DNA of 64,000 nucleotides, from assembly GCF_002090155.1 (NCBI RefSeq), contig NZ_BBRM01000003.1, forward strand, positions 62,001-126,000, read 5' to 3'. Shown here piece by piece: positions 51,561 through 58,379 of this stretch. Both the position numbers and the translations under genes were made by a program. The stretch is from Demequina sp. NBRC 110056 (lineage in GTDB: Bacteria > Actinomycetota > Actinomycetes > Actinomycetales > Demequinaceae). Within the stretch, counting starts at the first letter, position 1, and the number at the start of each line of letters is the position of its first letter. The notes beneath the pieces were generated by a model that saw only the letters and a list, made by a program, of their open reading frames with translations, had not been told where the DNA came from and did no database searches.

Positions 51561-53564
51561 TCAGGGTCGCGAGAGCGCCTGAGCTCGGGAGCTCCGTGCC
51601 CGCCGCGTCAACCCGGCGCCCGCCGCGCACACGGCGATGAACGCGACGTTCGCCACCGCGGTGATCGCCGTGAGGTTGCTCACCAGCGCCCACAGGGGGC
51701 TGGGGAACGCTGGCGTGGCGCCGCCGTAGATGGGAGACCAGCCCATCGCCATCGCGGTCGCGGCGGGAACCATGATGATCACGCCGGCGAGCGCGCCGAG
51801 CGCCGTGCCGAGGACCTGCGGCGCCCCGTACCGCACAGCGTCGGACAGGCCCAGGCGCTGCGCATCGAGACCCAGCGCACTCGCCGTGGCGTCCTCGTCG
51901 GCCGTGAGCCGCCGCGTCGCCGTCCACCCGGCTGCGCACAAGGCCTGGGTCGCCACGAGGGCGGCGGCGGCCACCGGCCAGGGGGAGTAGGACGCGGACC
52001 CGAAGGTGATGAACGTGACGGCGCTCACCCCCACCAGCGTCGTCACCGTGAGCGCTGGGAGCGTGGTGAGGATCGCGGCCTGGCGCGGATGCGCGGCGAT
52101 GACTGCGCCCGCGTGCAGGAGCGCCGGGTGGTGCGAGCGACCCACGAGCCTCCCGAGCACTGCGGCGAGACGCCGTGCGGTCTCCACCAGCACGGGCACG
52201 AAGGTGACGAGGGCGCCCGCGCACAGGAGCAGCGACCACGGCGCCTCCTCCTGGCTGGCGTTCGCGGCCGCGATGAGGAAGGCGATGTAGAGCGCAGCGA
52301 ACAGGAGGGCCACGGGCAGGAGTGGGGCGCGGCGCGACAGCGTGGCCTCGTCGACCGAGGGCAGGTCCTTGAGGGCCGCCGACGGCGAGACGCGCGAGGC
52401 GAGCACCGCGGGCATGGCGGCGGTGACGAGCCCGAGCGCGACGCCGCCGCCGAGCGCGAGCCAGTACAGGGTCGGGCTCGTGGTGAGCGGCACGGGCAAC
52501 GCTGCCGCCAGCGAGTGACGATGCGCCGCGTACTGGGCTGCCGCGACCCCCAGGCCGCTCGCGAGTCCCAGCGCCGCGCCGGCGACGCCGATCACGACGC
52601 CCTCCGCGACCGTCGCGACCGCGATGCGCCCGCGAGTCGCGCCGAGAGCCTGCGCCGTGGCCGTCCACTGGACGCGGCTGGCAGCTTGTGCGCGGCCCAC
52701 GGCGAACGCCATCGCGACGAGCCCGACCGCCAGCGCGATCGCGAGCCACATTGGGGCGACGACGTTGGGCGGCGTCGACAGCGCGCCTCCGGAGGACCAC
52801 ATCTCGGTGAAGGTCTGGGCGAGAGCGGGCGTGGTCGTGTCCCACGACACGGTCACCGTCGCGTACGCGTGGCGCGTGCCGTCCGAGTCGACGAGTGCCG
52901 CGTCGACGGCCGCGACCGCCGCGCTCGCGTCCTCCGTCGGCAGGTACGCGCGCCCCACGGGCCACGCGTCGGCTGGCCACATCGCGCCGTCGTAGGCGAG
53001 TCCTGACAGCGTCCGCGACTCGACCGCGCCTGACGCCGTCCCTGGCGGCCCGCTGGGCGCGACCGCGACGACGTCGCCCAGGCCGACACCGAGCGCCTCG
53101 GCGGTCGACGCCTCGAGCATCACGTCGCCCGGCCCGGGAGCTCGTCCGTCGGCGACCGCATCGTCCCATCGCACGTCGCCCCATTGGACGGCTGCGACCT
53201 CGCCCCACGGCCCCGCGGAGTCCGACGAGACGGTGACCTCGGCTCCCTGCAGGGCTGCGACGGCTCCCGCGCCCTCGGCGTTGGCCGTCGCGATCAGGTC
53301 CTCGAGCTCGGCCACGGTCATCGGCACGCCGTACTCGTCGATGTCGGGCGCGGGCCCGCCGTCGGGCGGGTAGAGGGCGGCCTGGGCGGAGACCTCTCGA
53401 ACGTCGCCCGACGCGACGGCGTACGCCCGCTCCTGGGCCTCGAGCGTGCGATCGACGGTCCAGGCGTAGGAGGCCAGCGCGACAGCGGCGGCGATGAGCA
53501 GCGTCGCCCAGATCGCGTAGGCGCGCTGGGAGCGGATCTGCTCCCGCAGGAGGGTCCAGGTCAT
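51561..53564 (-). CDS. FtsX-like ABC permease, third of three
   Basis: This 667-residue membrane protein has about ten helices and a large extracytoplasmic domain between helices 1 and 2. It begins MTWTLLREQIRSQRAYAIW, almost identical to the start of the 53561 permease, so the two are tandem duplicates. The ATG at 53564 overlaps the preceding stop (ATGA). QALGATRGRIAVATVAEGVVIGV and ASRVSPSAALKDLPS are MacB/FtsX-type loops. The terminal tail is Arg/Ser-rich. Confidence 0.88.
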   Translation of the reverse strand: MTWTLLREQIRSQRAYAIWATLLIAAAVALASYAWTVDRTLEAQERAYAVASGDVREVSAQAALYPPDGGPAPDIDEYGVPMTVAELEDLIATANAEGAGAVAALQGAEVTVSSDSAGPWGEVAAVQWGDVRWDDAVADGRAPGPGDVMLEASTAEALGVGLGDVVAVAPSGPPGTASGAVESRTLSGLAYDGAMWPADAWPVGRAYLPTEDASAAVAAVDAALVDSDGTRHAYATVTVSWDTTTPALAQTFTEMWSSGGALSTPPNVVAPMWLAIALAVGLVAMAFAVGRAQAASRVQWTATAQALGATRGRIAVATVAEGVVIGVAGAALGLASGLGVAAAQYAAHRHSLAAALPVPLTTSPTLYWLALGGGVALGLVTAAMPAVLASRVSPSAALKDLPSVDEATLSRRAPLLPVALLFAALYIAFLIAAANASQEEAPWSLLLCAGALVTFVPVLVETARRLAAVLGRLVGRSHHPALLHAGAVIAAHPRQAAILTTLPALTVTTLVGVSAVTFITFGSASYSPWPVAAAALVATQALCAAGWTATRRLTADEDATASALGLDAQRLGLSDAVRYGAPQVLGTALGALAGVIIMVPAATAMAMGWSPIYGGATPAFPSPLWALVSNLTAITAVANVAFIAVCAAGAGLTRRARSSRAQALSRP

Positions 53565-57600: not shown

Positions 57601-58379
57601 CGTTCAACCCCCGCAAGCGCATCGAGCCCGGCCAGGACGGCCTCGGGCGACGGATCCGTGATGTGGCCCTCGACGCGGCCGTCGGCGAACAGCAGCACCC
57701 GGCCCGCGTACGACGCGGCGGTCGGGTCGTGCGTCACCATGACGACCGACTGGCCCAGCTCGCGGCAGCTGACGCGCAGGTGCGACAGGATCTCCGCGCT
57801 CGCATGGGTGTCGAGGTTGCCGGTGGGCTCGTCGGCGAGCACCACGCGCGGCCGGGTGATCAGCGCGCGGGCGATGGCAACCCGCTGCTGCTGACCACCC
57901 GACATCTCATAGGGGCGGCGGTCGAGCTCGCGGTCGATCCCGAGCATGTCGACCAGCGTCGCCATCCAGTCCTTGTCGTGCGCCAGGCCGTTGAGCCGGA
58001 GCGGCAGCTGGATGTTGTCCCGCCCGGTCATGGTCTGGATGAGGTTGAAGCCCTGGAACACGAAGCCGACCACGCGGCCCCGCACCCGGGCGAGCTGCTT
58101 GTCGCTCAGGGCGGCGAGGTTGTCCTCGCCCACCCACACCTCGCCGCTGTCGGGCCGGTCGAGCCCCGCGAGCAGGTGAACGAGAGTGGTCTTGCCCGAC
58201 CCCGACGGGCCCATGATCGCCGTGAGCGTGCCGCCGGGGATGTCGAGGTCGACGTGGTCGACGGCGGTGACGGCGGCGTCTCCGGTCCCGTAGGTCTTGG
58301 TGAGGCCGCGGGTGGTCAGCGCGACGGGCGCCGATGCGCTCGCCGGCTGCTCGCCGCCCGTCACCGCTGGTGTGTCCAT
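57597..58379 (-). CDS. ABC transporter ATP-binding protein, LolD/MacB type
   Basis: This 260-residue ATPase powers the three FtsX-like permeases. It has GPSGSGKTTLVHLLAG (Walker A), MSGGQQQRVAIARAL (signature) and VVLADEPTGNLD (Walker B). Such transporters export peptides or lipids or confer resistance, often under a neighbouring two-component system. TAGCGT lies 7-8 nt before its ATG, and a palindrome is found at 58433. Confidence 0.93.
   Translation of the reverse strand: MDTPAVTGGEQPASASAPVALTTRGLTKTYGTGDAAVTAVDHVDLDIPGGTLTAIMGPSGSGKTTLVHLLAGLDRPDSGEVWVGEDNLAALSDKQLARVRGRVVGFVFQGFNLIQTMTGRDNIQLPLRLNGLAHDKDWMATLVDMLGIDRELDRRPYEMSGGQQQRVAIARALITRPRVVLADEPTGNLDTHASAEILSHLRVSCRELGQSVVMVTHDPTAASYAGRVLLFADGRVEGHITDPSPEAVLAGLDALAGVER

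Follow-up and report, generated by a model that had tools for sequence, protein, structure and literature searches.

A conserved ABC ATPase gene followed by a variable array of FtsX-type permeases of two classes in Demequinaceae

In the stretch of DNA analysed here (the window; 64,000 nucleotides from Demequina sp. NBRC 110056), a single ABC ATPase gene is followed by three tandem permease genes, which raises the question of whether these permeases are copies of one another, subunits of one complex or alternative partners of the ATPase. On the minus strand, the gene order is kinase, phosphoribosyltransferase, regulator, ATPase, P1, P2 and P3 (Table 1), and there is a 4-bp overlap at all three of the junctions ATPase/P1, P1/P2 and P2/P3. 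The original prediction of one ATPase and three overlapping permeases of 675, 671 and 667 residues was correct in its coordinates, lengths, overlaps and peptides. The FtsX domain PF02687 scored above the Pfam cut-off in P1, P2 and P3, and a Pfam sequence search gave no match to PF12704 in any of the three. P3 resembled the "ADOP" duplicated-permease model only weakly, scoring 28 bits where the cut-off is 622. In the surroundings, an ArsR-type regulator and a glyoxalase-like gene (window 50838-51529), both 95% identical in the closest relative, G028, are convergent with the array, and a perfect 15-bp tandem repeat of 3.1 copies (window 49939-49985) lies upstream of a minus-strand gene encoding 1057 aa.

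Table 1. Features of the permease array and adjoining genes, in window positions.
Feature	Position	Strand	Basis
Histidine kinase (HisKA_3/HATPase_c)	59720..60658	minus	Pfam, hydrophobicity
Phosphoribosyltransferase (PF00156)	59128..59628	minus	Pfam
NarL/LuxR-type response regulator	58472..59134	minus	Pfam/NCBIfam domain scans
ABC ATPase, LolD/MacB-like, 260 aa	57597..58379	minus	PF00005
P1, class A permease, 675 aa, ATG start	55573..57600	minus	PF02687, class profile, fold
P2, class B permease, 671 aa, GTG start, long branch	53561..55576	minus	PF02687, tree
P3, class B permease, 667 aa, ATG start	51561..53564	minus	PF02687, class profile, fold
P1 extracellular domain (model residues 331-517, approximate)	56050..56610	minus	Model secondary structure; MacB and YknZ periplasmic-domain matches
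P3 extracellular domain (model residues 52-262, approximate)	52779..53411	minus	Model secondary structure; LolE, LolC and MacB periplasmic-domain matches
116-nt junction repeat, copy at P1 end/P2 start	55529..55644	minus	Direct-repeat search
116-nt junction repeat, copy at P2 end/P3 start	53517..53632	minus	Direct-repeat search, 72% identical

The view of the array as three copies of one thing was not supported, as P1 belongs to one permease class (A) and P2 and P3 to another (B). An all-against-all comparison of 99 permeases from the family separated two classes of 54 and 44 members plus one singleton, which was assigned to class A, and class profiles set A and B apart by at least 192 bits; trees and profiles were made from the 53 A and 41 B sequences of sufficient length. 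In the tree, class A consists of three deep groups (SH-aLRT 100, 93 and 99), and many arrays mix them. Outside the family, most of the mapped ATPase relatives have a single permease of about 845 aa behind them, and in four such permeases scanned with Pfam there were two FtsX stretches in 4/4 and two MacB_PCD stretches in 2/4. The class profiles corresponded to complementary parts of full-length permeases of 793-893 aa: among the best 23 examined, the class A match started at residue 221-301 in 13 and was broken into several shorter matches, from repeated halves, in the remaining 10, and the main class B match ended at residue 470-583 in all of them. This mapping indicates that A is without the first extracellular domain and B without the second. 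Relative to two-domain YbbP-like permeases, class A thus keeps only the second domain and class B only the first. In a survey of 396 genomes of the order that scored two candidates in each, 28 had class B, all of them Demequinaceae (28 of the 35 family genomes covered). The class A profile, run on 119 genomes of the order, gave 399-666 bits in six family genomes and at most 126 bits in seven genomes outside the family; five of these seven matches were inspected and lay in operons of an ATPase and a single 837-872 aa permease.

We modelled P1 and P3 with AlphaFold, from alignments of the window proteins with full-length relatives. The models are of moderate confidence (mean pLDDT 66.7 for P1 and 70.2 for P3), and helix counts are approximate. 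P3 aligned to YbbP (9ge7) over residues 1-667 (549 residues, Z 21.5, rmsd 11.7); its alignment to BceB (7tch) had Z 19.6 (408 residues, rmsd 4.6). P1 as a whole aligned to BceB (7tch) with Z 11.9 (516 residues, rmsd 13.2), and its second half resembled YtrF, LolE and MacB in fold (Z about 15). Because some rmsd values are large, the domain orientation in the models is unreliable. A MacB/LolE-like periplasmic domain was recognised by fold only, with P1 334-516 matching YknZ (Z 8.9) and P3 41-256 matching LolE (Z 11.5). The fold matches chiefly cover P1 257-670 and P3 1-402, so that the first half of P1 and the second half of P3 are less tested. In the P1 model, to the extent of its moderate confidence, a single extracellular domain lies in the second half, in a BceB-like order and compatible with the ten helices and the one domain between helices 7 and 8 of BceAB-type transporters, whereas the extracellular domain of P3, and by homology that of P2, sits in the first half, which is the reverse of the BceB order. 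Furthermore, a glycine-centred motif, presumed to be the coupling helix, is present in both halves of both classes: L78-G79 and A565-L566-G567 are invariant in 27 aligned class A sequences, and in 28 aligned class B sequences G292 and A560/G562 are invariant and L561 is found in at least 90%. With a presumed coupling motif in both halves, a single permease could serve both ATPase monomers. Each permease is probably a complete pseudo-dimeric unit, as predicted from sequences and models, with about ten helices and two coupling helices as in YbbP and BceB.

The distribution of the array was analysed in 47 Demequinaceae genomes, in which the window genome is G000. An orthologue of the ATPase was present in 34 of the 47 with 71-97% identity outside G000, and the next matches, which are paralogues, reached at most 53%. 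Across 24 other orthologues aligned the identity was 72-97%, and SGGQQQR is invariant in the 25 aligned ATPases. The best NCBIfam similarities of the ATPase were to LolD, DarD, DevA and MacB, every one under its own cut-off; in a contig scan with the ATPase, the best among the matches listed, comprising paralogues and outside relatives, was 57%. Of the array loci, 33 were readable (that of G045 is cut by a contig end and was excluded). They hold one permease gene in 3 loci, two in 9, three in 11, four in 7, five in 1 and six in 2, counts that include short ORFs and in which G011 is entered as two because its class B gene is split. Conservation of the four-gene unit in relatives had been suggested as a check; the ATPase is widely retained, and the number of permeases varies from 1 to 6. 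Both classes occur in 29/33 loci, or 30/33 when the split B of G011 is counted, and A precedes B in all 29. G010 has an A-only locus and G013 and G038 have B-only loci, with a 31-residue remnant of A preceding the B of G038. The 4-bp overlap recurs at 52/66 array junctions, the starts being the gene caller's choice.

This survey also bears on the nature of the complex. The original prediction had offered a heterotrimer or alternative pairings; with two presumed coupling-helix motifs per class, and with one A-only and two B-only loci among the 33, a heterotrimer is unlikely, whereas alternative permeases for one ATPase remain the best reading. It had also named one working permease beside degenerate copies as the outcome that would undo it. 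Degenerate copies exist in a few loci, as an A remnant (G038), split B genes (G023 and G011) or short ORFs (G012 and G034), but not generally. Of the 99 collected permease ORFs, 94 passed the length cut. Not among these 99 are the split B of G011, the A remnant of G038 and five separate class B genes. The latter, which have a longer start (L041:2219-4243, L044:2607-4679, L045:2613-4667, L047:1781-3889 and L048:1887-3983), lie in five genomes beside the phosphoribosyltransferase gene, at a distance of about 10 kb from the array; they were added for the tree, where they form one clade. Other genes near the arrays include a short protein resembling the N-terminal part of class A upstream of the kinase (L060:4567-4983, which has no Pfam match, and L061:14808-15287), a protein of 225 aa after the array that has a stand-alone MacB_PCD match (L037:11201-11878), and genes of 210 and 221 aa, similar in size to the latter, after the arrays of L043 and L051.

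We compared the divergence of ATPase and permeases between sister species. In seven sister pairs the ATPases are 96-99% identical and the array permeases 30-91% (19 reciprocal-best comparisons, which leave out one separate class B gene pair, G006/G042, at 0.72). As a control, a full-length permease from a sibling locus was compared in the same seven pairs; its identity is 78-95%, and 18 of the 19 array-permease identities fell below this control, with one equal to it. The window's own sister pair showed the weakest contrast (permeases 0.67-0.69, sibling control 0.78). At the other extreme, the last permeases of G002 and G016 come from different B clades (30% identity), with the ATPase 98% and the gene after the array 99% identical. 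From one sister species to another, array permeases are gained, lost and replaced. dN/dS was 0.15-0.61 in all 17 permease pairs, and in 14 of these the extracellular domain had diverged more than the remainder of the protein; for the lone A of G010 compared to G020, whose locus holds one A and one B, dN/dS was 0.61 in the extracellular domain and 0.27 elsewhere. The extra permeases are real, mostly intact and constrained.

The near-identical starts of P2 and P3 and the alike junction peptides had been taken as a sign of a duplication that included the coupling site. The likenesses were borne out: P2 and P3 share residues 2-14 (TWTLLREQIRSQR), their first 20 residues are 80% identical, and P1 ends in QKAGIS and P2 in QKAGVR. 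In 138 divergence-matched between-genome class B pairs the first 20 residues are on average 46% identical, and 0.7% of these pairs reach 80%. However, P2 and P3 are only 25% identical overall, and P2 and P3 as one clade, as expected for a recent tandem duplication, was rejected (AU p 4.4e-05), whereas P2 as a deep member of a wider P3 clade was compatible with the AU test (p 0.287). P2 has a long branch, its best match in another genome being 36% identical locally and 29% over the tree columns; G028 is without P2, and its single B is sister to P3. A foreign origin of P2 was not seen in its composition (GC3 0.911, compared to 0.920 for P1 and 0.916 for P3). Recent gene conversion at the P2/P3 start was likewise set aside as weak, with the same codon at 9/14 shared residues. 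Part of the likeness of the P2/P3 starts and of the P1/P2 ends is family-wide, since the REQxRxxR-type start is a class B consensus (28 aligned) and the TPxExLRxAxKEG tail a class A consensus (27 aligned). In a blind search of 53400-55700 we found one long direct repeat, of 116 nt and 72% identity, spanning the P1/P2 and P2/P3 junctions, the next-longest being 30 nt. This repeat is the array junction, occurring twice around P2. Thus, the junction is duplicated as had been proposed, but P2 and P3 are not recent copies.

Comparison of the window with G028 was informative about where the arrays differ. The P1/P2 junction of the window and the P1/P3 junction of G028 are alike until about 30 nt past the start and then diverge, and the P2/P3 junction of the window resembles the P3 start of G028 from about the start codon onward. 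The breakpoint between the two loci lies near the class B start codon. The first kind of breakpoint was also seen between G026_p3 and G030_p3, where the second side is less clear, and the G002 and G016 sequences part at the start codon. Across arrays, class B starts of the same array were on average 0.778 identical, versus 0.637 after shuffling of genome labels, and 0/20000 shuffles reached the observed value; this test used the first 48 nt of 40 starts from 27 loci (G007, G010, G011, G013, G023 and G038 of the 33 were left out), and the label shuffle ignores relatedness. When pairs were matched for divergence, the excess was larger in the first 20-residue segment than in any other of the 65 (mean z 1.22, 13 pairs); for single same-array pairs, 0 to 63% of divergence-matched pairs do as well. 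The upstream junction halves showed no clear likeness in most arrays (27 loci), and no same-array homogenisation was found among class A starts. The same codon was used at 118/186 shared residues in same-array starts, 3881/6986 in between-genome starts and 1513/3039 in the rest of the same-array pairs. This codon evidence is modest, and instead of recombination, co-evolution with a common partner could account for the likeness of same-array class B starts.

A conserved two-component system adjoins the array, with the kinase and the NarL/LuxR-type regulator in the same operon. The window kinase contains a single hydrophobic segment, at its N-terminus, and none of its Pfam matches is to an input domain. 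By hydrophobicity, the kinases of relatives have none or one such segment each; Bce kinases, in comparison, have two membrane helices. The phosphoribosyltransferase gene lies between kinase and regulator in many relatives and elsewhere in the locus in others. A serpin gene was found in 22/47 family genomes, although not in the window genome. Among the 34 ATPase-bearing genomes, 17 carry it, every time inside the array locus; it also occurs in five genomes with no ATPase orthologue (G009, G015, G033, G035 and G046). In four of these five it lies amid usual-looking flanking genes, judged from gene lengths alone, and in the fifth on a short contig. When starts were extended upstream, 14 of 18 serpin ORFs had a lipobox-like signal. 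A serpin beside a two-component system has been published, as in the array loci, and the passages on that system describe no permease array. More generally, no description of a permease array sharing an ATPase was found in open PMC titles and abstract openings, a source mostly without subscription journals.

Among known systems, LolCDE has two four-helix permeases as a heterodimer, whereas each array permease has two modules. In MacB the ATPase is fused to the permease, whereas ATPase and permeases are separate genes here. Ordinary actinobacterial operons of an ATPase and an FtsX permease of about 845 aa (such as L076, L081 and L176) share the ATPase and permease families, and those of L081 and L176 have a kinase and regulator in front as well, but they differ in having one full-length permease per ATPase, and the version at the family's own sibling locus changes less from one sister species to the next. 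One sibling locus (L081:7951-16780) has two tandem pairs of ATPase and full-length permease behind the kinase and regulator. The array also resembles YbbAP(-TesA) of E. coli, with a separate ATPase and a two-module single-chain permease of about ten helices with coupling helices in both halves. YbbP has ten helices, with periplasmic domains between helices 1-2 and 7-8 and coupling helices between 2-3 and 8-9, and YbbA:YbbP:TesA assemble at 2:1:1 (PMC12646458). It differs in serving its ATPase as the one permease, compared to three here, and in its two periplasmic domains, where P1 and P3, and P2 by homology, have one each. BceB has a topology similar to that of YbbP with a single large domain (PMC12646458). 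BceAB-BceRS of Bacillus subtilis shares with the window this single large extracellular domain, which in the moderate-confidence model of P1 fits the same position, a separate ATPase and a two-component system alongside the transporter (PMC7038271). However, it has one permease per ATPase, versus three here and 1-6 in relatives, the domain is in the opposite half of P3 (and of P2, by homology), and the regulator at this locus is of the NarL/LuxR type.

The arrangement is thus real and unusual within a known superfamily, the Type VII (MacB/FtsX) ABC systems, whose FtsX-like permease module, separate ATPase of the LolD/MacB/FtsE type and, by fold, MacB/LolE-like periplasmic domain it has; what is new is the hypervariable array sharing one ATPase, together with the mirror-image class B, and not the number three. 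The locus may well encode a Type VII (MacB/FtsX/YbbAP/BceAB-like) ABC module in which a near-invariant ATPase is common to a hypervariable permease array, with a Bce-like role in sensing and detoxification, a reading by analogy that we hold to be about evenly balanced. Under this reading, the array permeases would be alternatives competing for one ATPase dimer, and their differing extracellular domains would recognise differing ligands outside the cell; peptides or peptide-lipid complexes are the most likely, and mechanotransmission would free or remove them. Flux through the permease would signal to the kinase, in which no input domain is recognised, and the regulator would then raise expression of the operon, plus the serpin where present. 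In the Bce system, transporter activity drives signalling (PMC7038271), and the input-less kinase, the large extracellular domains and the fast-changing extracellular part suggest that sensing here could be transporter-driven as well. Homologous recombination within the repeated junction would let permeases enter and leave, with translation coupling kept. A bolder form of the proposal, which we put forward tentatively, is a diversity-generating receptor array in which a fixed ATPase/kinase core is joined by permease cassettes swapped between strains through homologous recombination in a conserved junction, made up of one permease's end and the next one's first codons, so that each lineage would have a changing set of peptide receptors or effluxers, all of them feeding a single signalling and energy unit, with class B, whose extracellular domain is in the first half only, mirroring BceB.

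Other explanations fit parts of these data. The presence of both classes in 29/33 loci (30 with the split B of G011), with A always before B, and the complementary extracellular domains of the two classes would also suit an obligate, LolCE-like A:B heterodimer, in which A gives the second domain and B the first and extra copies provide alternative pairings. We consider this rather unlikely: with two presumed coupling motifs per class such a pair would offer four ATPase docking sites, P1 and P3 align lengthwise to single-chain permeases, and loci with only A (G010) or only B (G013, G038) exist, the lone A of G010 being constrained. High dN in the permeases and the truncated or split copies in G011, G012, G023, G034 and G038 could instead come from an ordinary exporter operon that was duplicated by chance and varies by neutral drift under relaxed constraint. 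This is improbable, given dN/dS of 0.15-0.61 in 17/17 pairs, 94/99 ORFs at full length, a conserved coupling motif and a sibling-locus permease that diverges less in 18/19 comparisons. The serpin's presence in half of the ATPase genomes, always at this locus and with a lipobox-like signal in most ORFs, recalls TesA with YbbAP and EnvC, the activator partner of FtsEX (PMC12646458), and would be expected if the permeases, as a protease- or envelope-stress machine, acted by moving a surface partner, the serpin, and not a toxic ligand. But half of the loci, the window's included, are without a serpin, and five genomes have the serpin and no ATPase orthologue, making such a machine very unlikely.

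If the alternative-permease reading is correct, a Type VII ABC system changes its specificity by swapping whole permeases on a constant ATPase, in contrast to the pairing of one permease with each ATPase in BceAB and YbbAP. The natural A-only, B-only and many-permease loci would then help to show if one permease with one domain is enough, and what purpose a second periplasmic domain serves in YbbP, MacB or LolCE. They would also constitute a natural experiment on the diversification of sensing and resistance modules, with the array looking like a means by which an environmental actinobacterial cell may renew what it senses or expels.
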